A DNA stretch of 64,000 nucleotides, from the NCBI RefSeq assembly GCF_003573545.1, contig NZ_QWET01000016.1, positions 1-64,000 on the forward strand, in the 5' to 3' direction. Both the position numbers and the translations under genes were made by a program. Every line of letters starts with the position of its first letter. The first letter of the stretch is position 1. Shown here piece by piece: positions 12,552 to 22,016 of this stretch. Below the pieces are notes generated by a model. It saw nothing but the letters and a program-made list of their open reading frames with translations, did not search any database and was not told the DNA's origin. The DNA is from Mariniphaga sediminis (lineage in GTDB: Bacteria > Bacteroidota > Bacteroidia > Bacteroidales > Prolixibacteraceae).

Positions 12552-13649
12552 ATGACAGAAATAATTCGTCCCACCTTAGTTATTGACAAAGAGGTTTGCT
12601 TGCGCAATATTGAAAAAATGGCGCAAAAAGCAAAAGATTTTAACCTGCGTTTCCGGCCACACTTCAAAACACACCAGTCAGCTGTTATTGGAGATTGGTT
12701 TCGAATGTATGGTGTGGAGGCTATTACGGTTTCTTCCATTCAAATGGCAGAATATTTTACCCAAAACGGATGGGATGACATAACGGTTGCATTTTCTGTA
12801 AATATACTTGAAATCAACAACATAAAAAGACTGGCTGCCAATATAAACCTGAATGTACTGGTGGAAAATAAGGAGGCTGCTACAGTATTATCCAATCAAA
12901 TCAGTCAGCCACTGGGAGTTTACATCAAAATTGACACCGGCACCAACCGTACCGGAATTGACGCCTCCAAAATACGATTAATCGATACTATTCTGGATAT
13001 TCTTTCTACAAACAAAAAAATTACATTCAAGGGTTTTCTTTCGCATAACGGAGAAACGTATTCAGCTCGTTCCACAAATGAAATTTTCAGCCGGCATTTT
13101 GACGCGTTACTTAAGTTGAAATCATTAAAGCAACGGTATAAAACCCAGTTCCCAAATGTTGAAGTAAGCATTGGGGATACTCCGTCGTGTTCTATTTGCA
13201 ATAATTTCGACGGAGTAGATGAAATCAGGCCGGGCAATTTTGTTTTTTACGATTTGATGCAGCAAAATTTGGACGTATGCGGATTTGATGATATTGCGGC
13301 GCGAATGACCTGCCCCGTTGTCGCCAAACACCCTTCGCGAAACGAAGTAGTCATATACGGCGGAGCCATCCATCTTTCGAAAGACTCTCTTCCCAATATC
13401 GACGGCAAACACTTTTTTGGCCGCATTGCAATCAATATAAACGGGGAGAAAAAACTACTGAACAAAAGAAATTACGTAACCCGGCTTTCACAGGAACATG
13501 GCGTTTTAAAAGTTTCGCAAAAGAATTTTGGACTGTTCAATATTGGGGACTTGGTTGAAATCATACCCATTCATTCATGTCTCACAGCCAATCTTGCCAG
13601 AAAATACCTGACAACCGATGGAGAAGAAATAGCCATGATAAATTCCTGA
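12552..13649 (+). CDS. D-threonine aldolase / D-serine dehydratase-family PLP enzyme
   Basis: A fold-type III PLP enzyme of 365 residues with the alanine-racemase N-terminal barrel. K39 in RPHFKTH is the probable PLP lysine, YIKIDTGTNRTG contributes to the barrel, and H341-x-C343 near the C-terminus (IPIHSC) matches the zinc ligands of D-serine dehydratase and the metal site of D-threonine aldolase. Family members split beta-hydroxy D-amino acids or deaminate D-serine in the cytoplasm. Next to a DeoR regulator and a sugar kinase, it could instead act on a hydroxy-amino acid released from a glycan or cell wall; this is inference. Length and both domains are complete. Confidence 0.88.
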   Translation: MTEIIRPTLVIDKEVCLRNIEKMAQKAKDFNLRFRPHFKTHQSAVIGDWFRMYGVEAITVSSIQMAEYFTQNGWDDITVAFSVNILEINNIKRLAANINLNVLVENKEAATVLSNQISQPLGVYIKIDTGTNRTGIDASKIRLIDTILDILSTNKKITFKGFLSHNGETYSARSTNEIFSRHFDALLKLKSLKQRYKTQFPNVEVSIGDTPSCSICNNFDGVDEIRPGNFVFYDLMQQNLDVCGFDDIAARMTCPVVAKHPSRNEVVIYGGAIHLSKDSLPNIDGKHFFGRIAININGEKKLLNKRNYVTRLSQEHGVLKVSQKNFGLFNIGDLVEIIPIHSCLTANLARKYLTTDGEEIAMINS

Positions 13650-13837: not shown

Positions 13838-15658
13838 TTAAGATAGTTGATGTCCCCGGGAATCCAACACCTCCAGGCTCCTGCACAGGGCTTCCATATA
13901 AGCGGTTACCGGATACATCTTTTCATCGTACCACAATGAGGCAAAATATAGCCCGATAGGAGCTGATTTTAATCCGTTTTCGAGGTAAAACAAGTTGAGC
14001 CATTTCAACCCCGCCTCACGTATTTTACGGTTTTCTTTCGCCATAAGTGCCGAAACTGCCAACGCTGTTTCTTCCATTGTCCCGGTGATATTCTTTGCAC
14101 CGCCCCAACTTCCGTCAGAATTTTGTACCGATATTAGAAACCGGCCTCCCTTTTCAATAAGCAGGTTTATACGTTGCTTCAATTCATCCGGTATCCATTC
14201 AAAACTCACGGCATCTTTTAAATAAGTAAGCACCTTCGCCGTTCCGTAAACCGGATTGACATGCCCGGGCACCTGTTGATTCCCGAACCAAAGCGGCAAC
14301 CAACTCCCATCTTCCTTCTGATGATATTCAAGATAAAACAACGCTTTTCCCACAGCTTTTTTCAATTTTCTCTTTTTCCACCGGGAAAGTTCACTCTGAT
14401 AGTTTTCCAATGCTGCTGAAATAGCCAGCAAGCTGTGCCCAGTCAGGTCGGAACAACTCTGATCAAAAGGCAATTTACCCCACCCCCTGGAAAATGTAGG
14501 GAAACCACCATCCTTATTTTGAAGGAAAACCAACCAATTGCAGGCAGCAAGTATTTCCTTCTTAACCATCATTTTAGGCTGAAGCTGCATCAATGCCAGA
14601 ATTGCTCCGGGGGTATCGTCGCCATCAGGAACCGCCCCCGGATGATTTGTCCACCCCCATCCTCCGGGGCGGGTACCGTTAAACGGATGCACCTTGTCAT
14701 TCTGATTCAATTTGAAGTGATCTGCAATTTTATCCTGCAAATCACTGTTCAAAAAACCGGGAAGACAGGAACGAAAAGACTTCACTGCAAGGGAAGTTAC
14801 CCAGATTGATAAATCAACATCAATAGGCCACCCCCCATCTTCACGTTGTGTGGCTTTCAAAAACCGAATGCCTTTTTTTACAACTTCCAACTCAGCATAA
14901 CCTGCATTTATCAGACTCAATGCGACAAAAGCTGTTAACGGTACAGCTTCGAGGAATCCACCACTTTTCGGGACCATACGATGCAGAACTTTAAGCGCCT
15001 TTGGAATGGAAAACCGGCGAACAAAGCGCCAAAACAAACCAGAACTTTTTTTTCTGAAAATGACAATCCCCACTGCCACCAGTGCCGGAATAGCGTAACT
15101 CACCACACTTAGGTTCAGCATCCTGTAAAAACGCCGCGGCAACAACGACAACTCAAATGGCAACTGCGGGATGTGTTTGAAGGCTTCCTCCCCTGGAACA
15201 CCGCAAAGCCCGCACATGGCTAAAATAGGTACCGAAAAAGTATAATCTTTCTTATAATAATTCAAAATTGCTTCTGCCAACTGAGGTGAATGCACATCAA
15301 TTTTTTGGCTGGCAAGGTACCCGGCAATTCTTTCCTGGAAAGAATGTACCCACTCCTCTTTATCCCTGAACAAATTGACTGTAGCATAAACCAGCAGGCT
15401 GGTACTCACGTTCCCCGGACTTTCGGGAGTATCGCCAAAACTACCATCCAGGTTAATGTTCGAACTTAACCAATTCAATCCTCTCTCAATCTCCCGGGCA
15501 TGTACCATCCGGTCATCAAAACAAAGCGCAGCCACAGCTACTGCCACCGCCAGTGCACTGGAAGAAAGCCGGCCTTCCCAATAGCCTTCCGGTTTCAGGT
15601 CTGAAACCAGGCCCCTTCCCAGTTCGTTTATCCGTTGTTCCAACTCTTCTTTATACAT
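13838..15658 (-). CDS. Squalene-hopene-cyclase-like class II terpene cyclase
   Basis: A 606-residue double alpha-toroid cyclase, the last gene of the 13.8-20.0 kb operon. The protonating motif is present as D345-G-D347-D348-T349, preceded by PGGWGWTNHP, matching the GGW...PDxDDT context of squalene-hopene cyclase. QW-type repeats occur at QREDGGW, QNKDGGF, QKEDGSW and QNSDGSW. The segment LPFELSLLPRRF followed by a hydrophobic stretch (about 166-200) matches the membrane-contact region of these cyclases. It is shorter than classical enzymes (about 630-720), and the usual GRWGxNYIYGT block is altered to LWFGNQ...NPVYGTA. The cyclisation of an isoprenoid is well supported; the substrate is open, because no squalene synthase gene is nearby. 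Starts 2 nt after the preceding gene. Confidence 0.85.
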   Translation of the reverse strand: MYKEELEQRINELGRGLVSDLKPEGYWEGRLSSSALAVAVAVAALCFDDRMVHAREIERGLNWLSSNINLDGSFGDTPESPGNVSTSLLVYATVNLFRDKEEWVHSFQERIAGYLASQKIDVHSPQLAEAILNYYKKDYTFSVPILAMCGLCGVPGEEAFKHIPQLPFELSLLPRRFYRMLNLSVVSYAIPALVAVGIVIFRKKSSGLFWRFVRRFSIPKALKVLHRMVPKSGGFLEAVPLTAFVALSLINAGYAELEVVKKGIRFLKATQREDGGWPIDVDLSIWVTSLAVKSFRSCLPGFLNSDLQDKIADHFKLNQNDKVHPFNGTRPGGWGWTNHPGAVPDGDDTPGAILALMQLQPKMMVKKEILAACNWLVFLQNKDGGFPTFSRGWGKLPFDQSCSDLTGHSLLAISAALENYQSELSRWKKRKLKKAVGKALFYLEYHQKEDGSWLPLWFGNQQVPGHVNPVYGTAKVLTYLKDAVSFEWIPDELKQRINLLIEKGGRFLISVQNSDGSWGGAKNITGTMEETALAVSALMAKENRKIREAGLKWLNLFYLENGLKSAPIGLYFASLWYDEKMYPVTAYMEALCRSLEVLDSRGHQLS

Positions 15659-15660
15659 TG

Positions 15661-16491
15661 CTATATTAATGTTCCCAAAGCCAGCAGGCCGTAAAATGTA
15701 TACTCCAAATCCCGTACTTCATCGCCGTTCCCTGCAAGAAAAGCTCCTGAATCATAACTTCCCTGGATAAATTCAAGACAGTCAGGAGCCACCATCCGCA
15801 AATCTGTGTCTGTTGCTTTTAAAGCAAACAAAACTACGGCGGTTGACAACAAATCCGCTTCTTCCACATTTCTGAATGCCTTAAACCCTTTTCCTTTTTC
15901 AAAATGGAACAACAATGCTTTTTTCTCCCGGTTTACTGATAATCCCACCTTATATCGAATCAGAGTCAATGCGGCATAAATACTGCCGGGCGACTCCACA
16001 GGAAGAGGATAAAAAAACAAAATTATACGGGCAAAAAAATGAATCATCTTCCCCTGATAAAAGGCATCAAAAACCAGAAAAAAAAGAAAAAGCCGGTAAA
16101 AAATACTTTGATTACTTTCTCTAAATGCCATTTTCAAAAGTTTCAAAAAAGACGGCTTTTGAAAATCTTCTTCAAAAAGGGAAATGCGAATAAGCAAAGA
16201 AGCAAGGGCATCTACCGTTCCGGATCTTTCATGCTGCTTTTCTCCAACAAAACTTTTATGATTTTCGAGCGTCTCCGGCATATCAAGAGCTGCAGAAAGC
16301 CAAACGCCAAAAAGGGAGTAATAAAAATCAGAACGGCCGCCACGGTCAGTAAAACCTCCGTTAGGATGCTGACACGATCTTATAAACTCTTTTACCTCGC
16401 GTTGATTTTCATTTTCGAGCGTAGAAAAACCTTTCTTTACCAATCCGATGAGCTGGCTGTATAATGGCTTTCCTGAATTCCTGTTGTTCAC
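15661..16491 (-). CDS. Small terpenoid-cyclase/prenyltransferase-toroid-like protein
   Basis: A 276-residue protein with a GTG start, 4 nt after the polyprenyl synthetase gene and 2 nt before the cyclase gene. I see partial QW-like repeats: QHPNGGFTDRGGRSDFYYSLFG near residue 40 and a C-terminal block (GAFLAGNG, then DLEYTFYGLLALG) that resembles the alpha/alpha-toroid of protein prenyltransferase beta subunits and terpene cyclases. There is no DxDD motif, so it is unlikely to start cyclisation itself. A middle hydrophobic stretch (about 128-175) may contact membrane. It may be a partner or substrate-handling subunit of the adjacent cyclase. Function is not known; placement in the operon is firm. 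Confidence 0.65.
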   Translation of the reverse strand: MNNRNSGKPLYSQLIGLVKKGFSTLENENQREVKEFIRSCQHPNGGFTDRGGRSDFYYSLFGVWLSAALDMPETLENHKSFVGEKQHERSGTVDALASLLIRISLFEEDFQKPSFLKLLKMAFRESNQSIFYRLFLFFLVFDAFYQGKMIHFFARIILFFYPLPVESPGSIYAALTLIRYKVGLSVNREKKALLFHFEKGKGFKAFRNVEEADLLSTAVVLFALKATDTDLRMVAPDCLEFIQGSYDSGAFLAGNGDEVRDLEYTFYGLLALGTLI

Positions 16492-16495
16492 TCGC

Positions 16496-18067
16496 TTATT
16501 CTTTAAAAATCTTTCCCATCACACCGTAAAGGCCCAAACGCAATTTCTGGTTCCGAAGATTATCCAGCTCCACATAACATTCTCCCGTGTACTTTTGGAG
16601 ATACATCTTCGCTTTTTCTTCCAGATTAAACTTTTCAATATTTCGTCTAAAAAGGGGGATATTATTTTCATTTAGAATTCGAGAAAACTCATGGTCAGAT
16701 CTTTTCATCTTTTCCTGCAACAAAACCAGCAAAAAAGGATAATCAAAAAGATTACCGGATGGGTTTCCTTCCTGAAATTCATTCAAATCGTCGCGAATCT
16801 GATACGCTATTCCAAAAGATTCTGAAAACCGGGTCAGGGATTCTTGTTCAGGCAGCGAAGCCTCACCGGCAATGGCACCAATGAGCAGAGCTACCTTCAC
16901 AGCCTCCCCTGTTTTCAGTCTGAAAATCCGGATTACATCATCCACTGATTTTTCAACTATCTGTGAATTCAATAATATATCGGCTCCCTGACCTTTTACC
17001 AGCTTTAAATGAGAATCGGCTACTAAACCCAAACAATCGGCTAAAACTGTTGATTTCAGGGGTATTTGCGAAAGAAACCAGTATCCTTTCCCAATAAGGT
17101 AATCACCAACATTAATTGCCATAGGAACACCTTCACTTTGATGTAAAACCGGTTGTCCGTATCGCACCTCTTCGTCATCTTCAATATCGTCGTGAACCAG
17201 CGAAGCCTTATGAAAACATTCGATAACCCAGGCAAGGCTTTTTTGAACACTTTCAGAAGGACTTTCAGAATAAGCCTGGTAAGCCAGTGCAGCCAGAAGT
17301 GGCCGAATACGTTGCCCTCCCATGCCAACAATTTTAAGGGCCAGTTTCTCTGTTTCATCCCCGGCAGAAAAAACAGCGTTCAACACAGGGGGTTGAAAAT
17401 ACTCACTCACCCGGTTTTTTAGCAGGGAAACGGAAAGTGGTGTGTGTTGACTTTCCCCGCTAAACGACTCCATCACTTCAAACAGCCACTGGTAATCAAA
17501 GCTGGTATTTGAGCAACCATCTTCCAACAAGGGAATGCCAATGCCCGGAACGGCTGAGCGCATTACCGGCTCAAACGAACGTTGCAGCACCGGCATACAA
17601 CTCACCCCGATAACCGCATCAATGGCCCCCTCTTCCACCAGGCCAATGGCCACTGTTGTTCCTTCAGCTACCAGTGTGGTGTAGCCTAACTTTTCCGCCT
17701 TTTGTAAAATGGAATCAATGCGACAATTCTGACAGCCGGCACAAACCAATCCCAACTCATCAAAAACCCCCTGGCATTGGGTGTCGTTATGAAGACACTG
17801 CGGCAACAGTAGCAACCTCCGGTGAAAAGGAGTGGCCAGTACGGTTTCACACCAAATTTCGTTTCCAAGTAATACCATGATAAAATCCGGAAAATCTCCG
17901 TTCACCCCTGGCTGACTCAAGATTTCTTTTGCAGCATCTGCCAATGTTTCAAAGTTAACGGGCGGAAGAATCCGGTTTTCTGAAATAAACATACGGATCC
18001 TGTGTCGTAAATCATTTCTGATTTCCGGCTGTTGGGGAACTTTCAATATGCGGTTTATTTCAAACAT
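16496..18067 (-). CDS. DUF116 - polyprenyl synthetase fusion
   Basis: A 523-residue two-domain protein. Residues about 60-195 look like DUF116, with cysteines C91, C98, C109, C112 and C115 (the last three as CAGCQNC), a plausible Fe-S or metal site. Residues about 225-520 are a trans-isoprenyl diphosphate synthase: first Asp-rich motif D293-D-I-E-D-D298, second motif D426-D-L-N-E430. Two departures from the family norm are visible: the usual GGKRxRP reads GGQRIRP (250-256), and the second motif ends in Glu. Small residues A288 and S289 upstream of the first motif suggest a product longer than C15. The domain elongates allylic diphosphates with IPP; what DUF116 adds is unknown. It lies between the radical SAM and cyclase genes. 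Confidence 0.85.
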   Translation of the reverse strand: MFEINRILKVPQQPEIRNDLRHRIRMFISENRILPPVNFETLADAAKEILSQPGVNGDFPDFIMVLLGNEIWCETVLATPFHRRLLLLPQCLHNDTQCQGVFDELGLVCAGCQNCRIDSILQKAEKLGYTTLVAEGTTVAIGLVEEGAIDAVIGVSCMPVLQRSFEPVMRSAVPGIGIPLLEDGCSNTSFDYQWLFEVMESFSGESQHTPLSVSLLKNRVSEYFQPPVLNAVFSAGDETEKLALKIVGMGGQRIRPLLAALAYQAYSESPSESVQKSLAWVIECFHKASLVHDDIEDDEEVRYGQPVLHQSEGVPMAINVGDYLIGKGYWFLSQIPLKSTVLADCLGLVADSHLKLVKGQGADILLNSQIVEKSVDDVIRIFRLKTGEAVKVALLIGAIAGEASLPEQESLTRFSESFGIAYQIRDDLNEFQEGNPSGNLFDYPFLLVLLQEKMKRSDHEFSRILNENNIPLFRRNIEKFNLEEKAKMYLQKYTGECYVELDNLRNQKLRLGLYGVMGKIFKE

Positions 18068-18070
18068 ATT

Positions 18071-19246
18071 TTATCCGTATGCTCCCAGTCCCCAAAATGC
18101 TTTCTTTTTTGCAAACCGGTACATCCAACTTTTTTCCCGCACAGGAGCGGCTGAACCATGACTGGGAACAGGTGCCATCTTTCGCAACCGCTCAGTTTCA
18201 TTGCCCCTCCCCGAAGTATCAATGGCAGCATGTTTTTCTGCTATTTCAACAACCCAATCCGGGTTTTCCATAAGAATACAACCGGAGGTTTTCTGCGGAA
18301 TTTCCTGCCTCAACGATTTCAGAAAAGTGGAAGAGCGGTACAACTCATCCAATGGTTTTTCCCCGACCCGATCAGCCGAAAACTGAATAACCGGGCAAGG
18401 TTCAACATACCCCGCCGCATTGATGTGATGACTAAGCCCCGAAGCTGCCGGGCACAATCCGTTGCCATTTTCATCCCAATAAGCATCAACAATCACAATA
18501 TCGAACTTCAAACGGGCGTCTACCATAAACTGCCTTAGTTTGTGAATTTCTTCTTTGCTGAGCGCCAGCTCCATGGATGGATTTTCTCCCACCGGACGGT
18601 AAATATAATACCACAGGTACGCCACATTCTTCCGGATTAATCCGTTTATAAATTCCGGTGAAAGGGCCAGTTCCAGGTTCGATTTACACACACTCATGGC
18701 TACTCCGGTAAAAAGTCCGGCACCGGTAGCAACTTCGATTGCATCATTGGTACGGCGGTAAATATCTTTTCCCCCGCGGCGAATGTCTGCCACCTGCTCA
18801 TCTCCTTCAAAACTAATTAGCGGCGTAACATTGGAACACCGGCGTAACTCTTCGGCCACCGAAGGCGTAAGCAATGTTCCGTTGGTAAACAGTTGAAAAT
18901 AACAATCAGAATGTTTTCTGAAAATATCTAGCAAAGGCTTATACAATAGTGGTTCGCCACCCAGAATACCAAAAAAATAGGATCCCATTGCTTTGGTTTC
19001 AGAAATAATCTGATTCAGCATTTCGGGTTCCATTCGATTGTTTTTCTCTTTCCCGGTTACCCAGCATCCCTGACAATGTAAATTGCAATCGTCGGTGACC
19101 GAAATAAAATGAAACGCCGGAAAAAACTCTCCCTTTTTCAGCCGCCGCTGAAAACGGTTAAAACCAAACGCTCCCTTAACCCCCAGGTTGTAAATCATTT
19201 TCCAAAGGCAACGCTTATCGGTATGCCATACTATTCTTCTTAACAT
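18071..19246 (-). CDS. Radical SAM enzyme with C-terminal cysteine-rich extension
   Basis: A 391-residue radical SAM protein. The [4Fe-4S] site is C54-x3-C58-x2-C61 (CNLHCQGC) and the SAM-binding GGEP motif is at 96-99. Beyond the barrel, C265, C284 and C323 form a SPASM/Twitch-like set that may bind an auxiliary cluster. Such enzymes cut SAM to a 5'-deoxyadenosyl radical and abstract hydrogen from an unactivated carbon. In this operon the natural hypothesis is radical modification of a polyprenyl or cyclised isoprenoid, comparable in logic to HpnH in hopanoid side-chain formation, but the sequence around the CxxxCxxC does not look like HpnH. It sits 1 nt after the Fe-S protein gene, its likely electron donor. 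Confidence 0.85.
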   Translation of the reverse strand: MLRRIVWHTDKRCLWKMIYNLGVKGAFGFNRFQRRLKKGEFFPAFHFISVTDDCNLHCQGCWVTGKEKNNRMEPEMLNQIISETKAMGSYFFGILGGEPLLYKPLLDIFRKHSDCYFQLFTNGTLLTPSVAEELRRCSNVTPLISFEGDEQVADIRRGGKDIYRRTNDAIEVATGAGLFTGVAMSVCKSNLELALSPEFINGLIRKNVAYLWYYIYRPVGENPSMELALSKEEIHKLRQFMVDARLKFDIVIVDAYWDENGNGLCPAASGLSHHINAAGYVEPCPVIQFSADRVGEKPLDELYRSSTFLKSLRQEIPQKTSGCILMENPDWVVEIAEKHAAIDTSGRGNETERLRKMAPVPSHGSAAPVREKSWMYRFAKKKAFWGLGAYG

Positions 19247-19247
19247 T

Positions 19248-20012
19248 TCATTCTTTTCTCCGTACTGAAATTTTCAACTCTTCCAATGCTTTTCGCCGTT
19301 CTTCTTTAGCCCGTTCCATCACTTCCTGCCGAAGAATATTTCGGCGGTTGCTATTTCGTTCGTTCAGGGTCATCAGCAGGTTTCCCCTGTCTACAGATAT
19401 CTGGGTACTGCCAGGCTCGTCTCCTGCAAGCACAGAATTCTCTGCCAACCTCGGAAAAATAATTGCTGACGCCGGACATGTCCTTCCACAGGCCGGGCAC
19501 CTATTTTTGCAGGCCAGCGGATTCACCACGTTCAGGTTTTTCTTATCGAAAGTATAAACCCCAAACAGGCAAAACCGGGCACATCTTCCGCAAAGAGTGC
19601 AGCGTTCTTTATCAATTACCGGGAACCAGGCAGGCACATCAAGTTTGGTGGCCCGTGTTTGAAAACGGGCTTCTCCCTGAGCCACACCAAACTCTGTTTC
19701 CAGTTTGGACAAAATCTGATTTGCTGTTAATTCTTTAAAATTAAGCACTTCAAAATTGCCAAAATCGATTCCGTTTTGAAGCAACATATTTCTTACCGCG
19801 CGCGGATAACAAGCCACTAATATTTTCTGCTGAAATTCTTTGCCAATAGCGTTCAAAACGTCCTTTTCATTAACCGAAAAAGCACACAAATCGTGAAGTT
19901 CATACACATGAACATCCTGCTTCTTCAATCCCTCCAGAATATCATTCTGTTTGGTATCAGAAATAACATTGGCACTGCAACGGCAGAAAATTACACACGA
20001 TTTTTGGCTCAT
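19248..20012 (-). CDS. HdrA-like / 2x[4Fe-4S] ferredoxin-domain protein
   Basis: First gene of the operon, 254 residues. The N-terminus (SCVIFCRCSANVIS) resembles the start of heterodisulfide-reductase HdrA-type proteins, with C6, C10, C12, C43 and C68. A bacterial ferredoxin module follows: C138-x2-C141-x2-C144-x3-C148 and C168-x3-C172-x2-C175-x3-C179-P, enough for two [4Fe-4S] clusters. The tail is charged. It probably supplies electrons to the radical SAM enzyme encoded 1 nt downstream. The reading frame extends upstream to about 20090 with a hydrophobic leader-like peptide, but a promoter at 20043-20071 lies inside that extension, so I place the start at 20012. Confidence 0.8.
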   Translation of the reverse strand: MSQKSCVIFCRCSANVISDTKQNDILEGLKKQDVHVYELHDLCAFSVNEKDVLNAIGKEFQQKILVACYPRAVRNMLLQNGIDFGNFEVLNFKELTANQILSKLETEFGVAQGEARFQTRATKLDVPAWFPVIDKERCTLCGRCARFCLFGVYTFDKKNLNVVNPLACKNRCPACGRTCPASAIIFPRLAENSVLAGDEPGSTQISVDRGNLLMTLNERNSNRRNILRQEVMERAKEERRKALEELKISVRRKE

Positions 20013-20485: not shown

Positions 20486-21949
20486 TTATTTTTCAGGAAT
20501 ATTTTCCAGTGTAGCTTTCATAAAATCCCAGAACTTCTGCACGGTTTCTACGTTCACTTTCTCGTCCGGAGAGTGTGGAAAACGAATGGTAGGGCCAAAA
20601 GAAATCATGTCCCAACCAGGGTATTTTCCTCCCAAAATCCCACACTCCAACCCGGCATGAATCGCTTTTATTTCCGGTATTTTGCCAAACTTCTCATGAT
20701 ACACCTCCTGCATGGTTTTCAGGATGGCTGAATCCATATTGGGTTTCCAGCCGGGATAAGAACCGGAGAAGGTTACTTTGGCCCCGGCCAGTTCAAATAC
20801 CGCTTTAATCCGCGAAGCCAGATCTTCCTTAGCCGAGTCAACCGAGCTGCGCATCAATGCGGCACACAGGATGGTTTTCTTTTCCGTATCCGATTTTATA
20901 ATGGCCAGGTTAGTGGAAGTCTCCACCAAACCTTTCATGCTGTCACTCATCCGGATAACCCCGTTCGGACATGCCACAACCGCCATGGTAAGACTCTCCT
21001 GTGTTTTTTTGTCGATTAAAGCTGCCGGAAATTCCGTCTGTTCTATTGTCACCTTTAAATCAGGTTCGGTAGCCGACAGTTCGTGTTTGATGGTTTCAGT
21101 CAGCTCATCCACCAGTGCCGCAAAATCAGATACCGATGCCTCACTAACAGCCAAAACACCAAATGCTTCGCGTGGGATAGCATTACGCAAACCTCCGCCA
21201 TCAATACTTGCCAAACGAACCCCAAGCTTCTCGCCCGCAGCATTCAGAATCCGGAAAAACACTTTATTTGCATTCCCACGACCCAAAGCAATATCCATCC
21301 CCGAATGCCCGCCTTTCATGCCGGTTACACTCATTTTTATCCCGGTAAACCCGGCTGGAATTTCTTCCTCCGTATAGGAAAACAGAGCTGTTGCATCTTC
21401 ACCTCCGGCACAGCCCACATACAGTTCTCCTTCATCTTCCGAATCGGTATTGATTAAAATCTCCCCTTTCAAAACCCCTGCCTTCAGTCCGTTGGCGCCA
21501 TCCATCCCGGTTTCTTCTGTGGCAGTAAGCAGTACCTCCAATGGCCCGTGCTTCAGATTTTTTGATGACAATACCGCCAATGCCGCAGAAACACCGATTC
21601 CATTATCAGCACCGAGAGTAGTTCCATTGGCAGTCACCCATTCACCATCAATAAACGCGTCAATGGGATCGGAAATAAAATCATGTTCTTTGTCACTGTT
21701 TTTTTGCGGTACCATATCCAGGTGGCCTTGCAAAATCACTCCTTTCCGGGTTTCCATTCCCGGGGTAGCCGGTTTACGGATAACCACGTTTCCCGCTTCA
21801 TCTTTCAGGGTTTCCAACCCCAGATTATTCCCAAAACGGACTGCCCAATCCTGTATTTTTTCTTCATGATTGGAAGGTCGTGGAATTTGTAAAATCTGGT
21901 CGAAAATGCCCCACACTTCAGCAGGTTGGATATCTTTAATTTTATTCAT
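20486..21949 (-). CDS. pepD: Aminoacyl-histidine dipeptidase (peptidase D, M20 family)
   Basis: Cytosolic di-zinc peptidase that hydrolyses Xaa-His and other dipeptides; 487 residues from the ATG at 21949. Zinc and catalytic motifs are visible: GHLDMVP, LGADNGIGV, and ATEETGMDGA with the catalytic Glu-Glu pair; NTDSEDEGELYVGCAGG is typical of PepD. A late AIHAGLECG carries a further conserved His. A longer frame to 22015 exists, but the ATG beginning MNKIKDIQP matches the family start. The upstream MFS transporter gene ends 67 nt before the start on the same strand, so the two probably form an importer-peptidase operon ended by the hairpin at 20367-20399. Confidence 0.93.
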   Translation of the reverse strand: MNKIKDIQPAEVWGIFDQILQIPRPSNHEEKIQDWAVRFGNNLGLETLKDEAGNVVIRKPATPGMETRKGVILQGHLDMVPQKNSDKEHDFISDPIDAFIDGEWVTANGTTLGADNGIGVSAALAVLSSKNLKHGPLEVLLTATEETGMDGANGLKAGVLKGEILINTDSEDEGELYVGCAGGEDATALFSYTEEEIPAGFTGIKMSVTGMKGGHSGMDIALGRGNANKVFFRILNAAGEKLGVRLASIDGGGLRNAIPREAFGVLAVSEASVSDFAALVDELTETIKHELSATEPDLKVTIEQTEFPAALIDKKTQESLTMAVVACPNGVIRMSDSMKGLVETSTNLAIIKSDTEKKTILCAALMRSSVDSAKEDLASRIKAVFELAGAKVTFSGSYPGWKPNMDSAILKTMQEVYHEKFGKIPEIKAIHAGLECGILGGKYPGWDMISFGPTIRFPHSPDEKVNVETVQKFWDFMKATLENIPEK

Positions 21950-22016
21950 CTCTTTTTCAAATTTAGAATTTACCGAATATTTTAACGTACAATATTTTAA
22001 GTGCCCTACACTCATT

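Follow-up and report, generated by a model that had tools for sequence, protein, structure and literature searches.

A conserved five-gene cassette in Mariniphaga sediminis and its relatives that probably directs the synthesis of a cyclised polyprenoid

The window analysed here is a stretch of 64,000 nucleotides from Mariniphaga sediminis, a member of the order Bacteroidales (positions 1 to 64,000 of contig NZ_QWET01000016.1, assembly GCF_003573545.1). At 13838-20012 it carries five genes, A to E, all on the minus strand, which we interpret, with a probability of roughly 55%, as a squalene-independent and probably anaerobic pathway to a cyclised polyprenoid lipid that would work in the membrane together with an electron-transfer system of beta-propeller, NuoEF-like, and NapGH-like proteins. 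Gene A (20012-19248; 255 codons including the stop) encodes an HdrA-like Fe-S electron-transfer protein, B (19246-18071) a radical S-adenosylmethionine (SAM) enzyme, C (18067-16496) a fusion of a DUF116 domain to an all-E polyprenyl diphosphate synthase, D (16491-15661; GTG start) a small alpha-alpha toroid protein, and E (15658-13838) a full-length class II cyclase similar to squalene-hopene cyclase (SHC). The genes are separated by 1 (A-B), 3 (B-C), 4 (C-D), and 2 nt (D-E). An earlier reading made from the sequence alone had placed five genes 1-4 nt apart and named their components; the spacing is as described, and Pfam and NCBIfam matches and conserved motifs agree with the names, the toroid assignment of D being weak.

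A scan of named genomes with an alignment of B returned 300 confirmed relatives, and the counts for this set cover the best 80 of them. All five genes occur in order in 65 of these 80 loci, and a further 12 are cut by contig ends. Among 60 related genomes, the fusion C was found in 18, the M. sediminis genome (G000) included; in one of these (G018) C runs off its contig. The five genes have the same order and strand in 15 of the 17 regions from relatives, the other two (L021, L037) being cut by contig ends; these regions overlap with the 80 named loci. An order-wide sample of 393 genomes contained C in 17. In nine of the 13 C-containing genomes newly examined from this sample, the five genes lie on one contig, and in two of these genomes the contig breaks off within an end gene; the cassette is split over two contigs in G563, cut in G487 and G750, and without E in the 2.4 kb downstream in G812. 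Four of the 13 (G621, G592, G812, and G487) repeat genomes of the 80-locus set, G812 being the genome of L109. The search for the same gene order in other genomes that the sequence-only reading had proposed thus finds it in all three sets.

The fusion occurs in 11 families of the order, and all five genes in 10 of those. Intergenic gaps of at most 20 nt separate A from B in 45 of 68 loci and B from C in 51 of 68. The distances between loci are congruent for all protein pairs (Spearman 0.91-0.94; 67 distinct sets). In total, 103 loci with B were collected, 95 of them distinct, and the congruence counts and the linkage counts given below use loci without duplicates. The gene order is conserved far beyond chance; together with the congruent divergence, this makes the five genes a co-inherited unit. 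Taxa named Bacteroidota account for 79 of the 80 named loci; the remaining one (L043) is labelled Chlorobiota and is apparently the same-family genome G007. Among 395 genomes drawn evenly over the phylum, the full-length fusion was found only in G000, and three other matches with E < 1e-40 (G205, G217, G386) span the synthase half only; a phylum-wide spread of the fusion was rejected on this basis. No plasmid record carried the fusion at 80% coverage. In two loci C is altered, being split into two frames in L107:8914-10850 and short at its C-terminus in L159:6535-7980; these may be assembly errors or decay.

Squalene is very probably not the substrate. Family PF00494 covers the squalene, phytoene, and HpnC/D-type synthases. 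The sequence-only reading had noted that the window holds no squalene synthase gene, and the absence extends to the whole 5.83-Mb assembly (completeness 99.67%), which has no PF00494 match at E 0.001. The family is absent from five of the 18 cassette genomes (G000, G005, G007, G018, G051; completeness 91-99.67%), and the cassette is therefore not generally squalene-dependent. An SHC-like frame (PF13243) was found once in each of the 18 cassette genomes and in none of eight cassette-less relatives; in G018 and G051 it lies on a different contig from C. The suggestion of the sequence-only reading that the substrate is something other than squalene, perhaps a polyprenyl diphosphate or its derivative, stands in its first part, and a diphosphate may be the substrate.

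These counts bear directly on a hopanoid-type pathway, in which E would cyclise squalene, B would be an adenosylating enzyme like HpnH, and the product would resemble bacteriohopanepolyol. The remaining 13 of the 18 genomes do contain a PF00494 protein, SHC is the nearest relative of E by both sequence and fold, and E keeps the DxDD motif, several cavity aromatics, and H408. Like B, HpnH belongs to the radical SAM enzymes; it acts after an SHC, and hopanoid clusters combine an SHC-fold cyclase and a radical SAM enzyme as the cassette does. However, the HpnH model (TIGR03470) exceeded its cut-off in none of the 18 genomes, B of the window reaching 32.9 bits against a cut-off of 225.05; weaker radical SAM matches to this model occur in all genomes, 14 controls included. 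E is moreover under the SHC cut-off and on a long branch from the four SHC/SqhC-type sequences in our tree, and the cassette has a prenyl synthase of its own. With PF00494 missing from five cassette genomes and HpnH over cut-off in none, which also answers the comparison with HpnH clusters that had been proposed earlier, we set the squalene-hopanoid reading aside as very improbable.

Protein C scored 106.6 bits against DUF116 (PF01976; cut-off 25) and 139 bits against polyprenyl_synt (PF00348; cut-off 27). The genome holds two other PF00348 genes, so that C is an additional synthase. Its DUF116 half has seven conserved cysteines (C91, C98, C109, C112, C115, C157, C185). Both Asp-rich motifs of the synthase half are conserved, the first as DDIED and the second as DDxxE/D, and the list of residues conserved at the 95% level (84 sequences) includes D293, D294, D297, R302, K385, T386, Q423, D426, and D427. 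In prenyl synthases, the residues just before DDxxD bear on chain length. C has a conserved Ala five residues before the first Asp of this motif and a conserved Phe eight before it; because of the Ala, with the Phe at the eighth position, the product is probably longer than C15. The AlphaFold model of C (predicted local distance difference test, pLDDT, 89.4) has prenyl synthases as its nearest folds, and the 50 matches listed were all prenyl synthases. When the DUF116 half was compared with PDB sequences, nothing convincing emerged (one match at E 1.7). DUF116 has been proposed to be a flavodoxin-like, Cys-rich domain in electron transfer, and a DUF116-polyprenyl synthetase fusion with the same domain pair as C was described in Pirellula staleyi (Psta_0175; Makarova et al. 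2015, PMC5898192); the passage of that paper on Psta_0175 gives it no cyclase, radical SAM partner, or product.

Protein D matched the Prenyltrans toroid at 18.7 bits, under the cut-off of 26.5, and nine of the ten members of its family alignment (A7) match Prenyltrans at E 0.01. Its nearest solved relative is the beta subunit of RabGGTase. Protein prenyltransferases carry a zinc site; the conserved-residue list of the D sequences contains no Cys, and D therefore lacks this site. A putative role of D is the binding of an isoprenoid.

Cyclase E scored 95.7 bits against SQHop_cyclase_C and 58.3 bits against SQHop_cyclase_N. The DGDDT motif reported in the sequence-only reading is present as PDGDDT: D345, D347, and D348, which form the DxDD motif, and H408 are in the 95% list (79 sequences) and invariant in the 40 sequences of alignment A5. 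In an alignment with reference cyclases, H408 falls on the His of SHC (DVTGH/DLTGH), and the conserved aromatics W286, W336, F389, W457, and Y471 fall on SHC aromatics, including a Trp at the position of W312 and aromatics at those of F365, Y420, W489, and Y495. The AlphaFold model of E (pLDDT 90.5) superimposes over its full length on Alicyclobacillus SHC (1sqc, 2sqc, 3sqc) with template modelling (TM) scores of 0.72-0.75; the fold search places human lanosterol synthase and the drimenyl diphosphate synthases after it. Part of the fold is also found in MstE, a known cyclase whose structure was solved with prenylated dihydroxybenzoates. E nevertheless differs from SHC in having only 20-21% identity to it, in reaching 82.1 bits against the SHC equivalog TIGR01507 (cut-off 431.1), and in lacking an SHC insert of ~45 residues.

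The sesquarterpene (tetraprenyl-beta-curcumene) cyclase SqhC also has the SHC fold and acts on a polyprene other than squalene whose precursor is a long prenyl diphosphate. In our tree, a cyclase of Bacillus velezensis that we take to be SqhC groups with SHC and not with E, which bears on the comparison with sesquarterpene cyclases put forward in the sequence-only reading; we know of no radical SAM or DUF116 partner of SqhC. The tree from which this grouping comes has long branches, above all that of Strep_clav, gives the cassette E group a support of 58/98, has no firm root, and leaves out the Streptomyces NBC_00012 sequence.

The drimenyl diphosphate synthases and bacterial class II diterpene cyclases (7xq4, 5bp8, and Tpn2, 7xkx) share the pair of toroids and the Asp-rich acid motif with E, and the drimenyl synthases are the closest matches after SHC. 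The locus might accordingly be read as a cluster for a labdane- or drimane-like secondary metabolite, with E acting as an ordinary class II cyclase of diterpene or sesquiterpene diphosphates. E has the stretch GGxPTFx(R/K)G in common with drimenyl synthase, and TM scores normalised by the target are higher for drimenyl synthases (0.77-0.84) than for SHC (0.72-0.73). The ranking is reversed when the scores are normalised by E (0.63-0.67 for drimenyl synthases versus 0.73-0.75 for SHC), and the E profile gives 87.1 bits against SHC versus 42.5 against drimenyl synthase. Diphosphate-using cyclases such as Tpn2 carry a Lys (K383; PMC9814783) at a site that would lie near W457, the mapping being uncertain; the 95% list of E contains no Lys or Arg at 452-475. 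Genes for a class I synthase, a P450, or another common tailoring enzyme are also absent from the cassette, and co-inheritance across many families of one order would be unusual for a secondary metabolite. We regard this alternative as unlikely.

Genes A and B would supply the Fe-S and radical chemistry that our preferred pathway calls for. A contains 4Fe-4S domains; its best NCBIfam match is HdrA at 34 bits, far under the cut-off of that model, its profile aligns weakly with the N-terminal Cys domain of HdrA (5.9 bits), and HdrA chains are its best PDB matches. Cysteines conserved in A (95% list, 88 sequences) comprise a set of the HdrA N-terminal type (C10, C12, C43, C68) and two 4Fe-4S motifs (C138/141/144/148 and C168/172/175/179). 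B matched Radical_SAM at 58.9 bits. Its CxxxCxxC motif corresponds to C54, C58, and C61, and five more cysteines are conserved (C115, C187, C265, C284, C323; 95% list, 93 sequences). The SPASM score of 13.1 is under the cut-off of 21.5, and the cysteine pattern suggests that B may carry an auxiliary cluster of the twitch/SPASM type.

The best PDB match of B is SkfB, and the likeness of B to SPASM maturases of this kind raises the possibility of peptide or protein modification, with B as a SPASM-like maturase and the toroids D and E prenylating the target; the resemblance of D to the RabGGTase beta subunit fits such a scheme. We searched the short flanks of the cassette (478 nt upstream, 200 nt downstream) and found no conserved small open reading frame (ORF) among the four ATG-started ORFs of 20-110 aa. 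Only one of the four gave a match, in a single one of the 80 loci (46% over 26 aa), and this match lies within E of that locus and antisense to it. The narrow A-B and B-C gaps of most loci, the lack of a conserved Cys in D, and the DxDD kept by E also speak against this scheme, and the peptide-maturation reading was rejected for want of a conserved precursor-like ORF in these flanks; we give it a small chance of being correct. Radical SAM matches to B were found in 48 plasmid records. In three of these records (Klebsiella, Escherichia albertii, and Methanosphaera), where the proteins are 29-33% identical to B, the listed features show neither a prenyl nor a cyclase gene nearby, and these proteins were dropped as cassette relatives. 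Two of the genes, encoding proteins of 30-31% identity on enterobacterial plasmids (L131:8857-10158, Klebsiella; L132:2254-3633, Escherichia albertii), have replication genes and insertion sequences within a few kb.

Gene families in the flanks of the cassette were clustered over all loci with B, which fall into 11 lineages at 72% B identity (single linkage). Counting families found in four or more loci, just one from outside the cassette occurs in more than two of the 11 lineages, that of exported PQQ_2 beta-propellers. Of the 60 related genomes, all 18 with the cassette have this family, as do 13 of the 42 without it; in the order-wide sample, it occurs in 17 of 17 cassette genomes and 55 of 376 others (Fisher 5e-14, ignoring ancestry and genome size). 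Physical linkage was assessed in the 64 distinct loci whose sequence extends 2.5 kb or more past E. In 13 of the 64, a propeller on the same strand starts no more than 4 kb downstream of E: four of four in lineage 7, seven of ten in lineage 5, two of 44 in lineage 0, and none of six in five other lineages. Two loci have propellers close after E (L063:13724-17173 and L064:6583-10304) even in the lineage of M. sediminis, which suggests that the linkage was gained or lost more than once. A CobW-like GTPase follows E in some loci (L107:13604-14794, L156:10991-12277), and an ArsP-type permease in others (L061:31-1107, L107:14799-15818, L115:13406-14443).

Where we read its content, the propeller cluster encodes anchored propellers, a ferredoxin of the twin-arginine translocation (Tat) type, a NapH-like polyferredoxin, an ATP-binding cassette (ABC) transporter with an FtsX permease, a glycosyltransferase, a fused NuoE-NuoF-like protein with extra 4Fe-4S motifs, and a NuoG-like protein. 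The domains were named on the proteins of G058, one of four genomes fetched for adjacency; the cluster directly follows the cassette in G058, G016, and G629, and follows a CobW-like gene in G681. In M. sediminis itself the cluster lies elsewhere, around C67:54000-74709 (L184, L176). There, as in the related loci L185-L188, it comprises ~13 genes, with PQQ-like and NHL propellers beside the NapGH-like, NuoEF/NuoG-like, ABC/FtsX, and glycosyltransferase genes. Much the same cluster is present in the cassette-less genomes G002, G004, G012, and G042. The cluster looks like an NADH-linked transmembrane electron conduit. The fused NuoEF resembles the core of the bifurcating Bfu enzymes (PMC9304861), which is a likeness and not a test. 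Our searches of an open-licence library found no description of this propeller/NuoEF/NapGH-like system. We lean towards a functional tie between the cassette and the propeller cluster, and the association shifts the likely role of the product from a stand-alone natural product to a membrane or redox lipid.

The same association could be read more narrowly: the product would be a new redox-active isoprenoid, prenylated and in part cyclised, that serves the propeller/NapGH-like complex as an electron carrier or cofactor, and not a structural lipid. The one-way genome association, the adjacency of cassette, propellers, and then NuoEF/NuoG/NapGH-like genes in G058, G016, G629, and G681, the richness of A, B, and DUF116 in Fe-S, and the partial fold match to MstE with its prenylated dihydroxybenzoates are all compatible with this. 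However, the cassette has no aromatic-ring-forming or quinone-type enzyme, and the complex apparently runs without the cassette in the 55 sampled genomes that have propellers and no detected cassette. We consider this interpretation doubtful.

For the squalene-independent pathway, we propose the following scheme. Judging from its conserved active-site motifs, the synthase half of C would make an all-trans polyprenyl diphosphate dedicated to this pathway, its chain probably exceeding C15. E would then protonate the far end of the chain through the middle Asp of DxDD, with H408 as the activating residue, and the rings would close, while D may bind the isoprenoid or hand it on. A and the DUF116 half of C would give low-potential electrons, and B would adenosylate, reduce, or dehydrogenate the prenyl chain or its head, or form a C-C bond there. 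Cyclisation and the radical step could come in either order, and E could take the chain as a diphosphate, as a reduced hydrocarbon, or in modified form. The product would serve in the membrane beside the electron-transfer system, propellers being found in every cassette genome sampled. That the cassette makes a cyclised polyprenoid is likely in our judgement. The proposal of the sequence-only reading that the operon yields a cyclised polyprenoid with a radical step is thus retained as the most likely one on gene order, conserved catalytic residues, and the PF00494 and HpnH absences; B may act on the cyclised product. A bolder version, which we offer tentatively, is that this is a new class of membrane isoprenoid with a new route to its rings: the Fe-S pair of DUF116 and the HdrA-like protein, together with the radical SAM enzyme, would process a dedicated polyprenyl diphosphate reductively and without a squalene synthase, a divergent cyclase of the SHC fold would form the rings, and an NADH-linked complex that passes electrons across the membrane to periplasmic PQQ-like propellers would use the product as a redox or structural lipid.

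Several observations weigh against our reading. Two of the 80 named loci (L072 and L090) have no detectable A, and L109 has no E; in G051, the 3.3-kb contig with C is separate from the contig with E, which carries none of the other four genes. The order-wide search scored at most three candidates per genome for C and four for the propeller, so its negatives may hide misses, and the co-occurrence statistics carry no correction for ancestry or genome size. The link is one-way, given the 55 genomes with propellers alone, and the cassette is unlinked to propellers in 51 of the 64 loci and in M. sediminis itself. To these must be added the PF00494 proteins of 13 cassette genomes, the low score of E against TIGR01507 with its missing insert, and the presumed diphosphate site, at which no conserved basic residue was seen, a result that does not speak for direct cyclisation of a diphosphate.

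The sequence-only reading had also assigned one promoter to the five genes. A candidate, TTTG-N17-TATTTTTG (20071-20043, minus strand), does lie 30 nt upstream of the ATG of A and matches a Bacteroidetes-type pattern. The window holds five matches to this pattern where 3.3 are expected, a number reached or exceeded in 25 of 100 shuffles and so no better than chance, and the match taken alone is weak. The cassette is flanked by genes at 12552-13649 and 20486-22015, which we take to be amino-acid-racemase/aldolase-like and dipeptidase-like, respectively; they still adjoin the cassette in a number of near relatives.

The sequence-only reading knew of no characterised pathway with this gene set, and searches of an open-licence library, which does not cover the whole literature, likewise gave us no paper on the combination, on its substrate logic, or on the partner system. 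The component folds are known except for DUF116. There is a real chance that the chemistry itself is new in kind.

Ringed polyprenoids such as hopanoids, sterols, and sesquarterpenes act as sterol surrogates in bacteria and serve as geological biomarkers, and their usual marker is a squalene synthase together with an SHC. If our reading is true, many Bacteroidota carry a squalene-free cassette and with it a source of cyclic isoprenoids that has so far gone uncounted, and the fusion of DUF116 to a prenyl synthase would have its first function. The association of the cassette with the propeller/NuoEF/NapGH-like electron-transfer system also provides a direct handle on that system.

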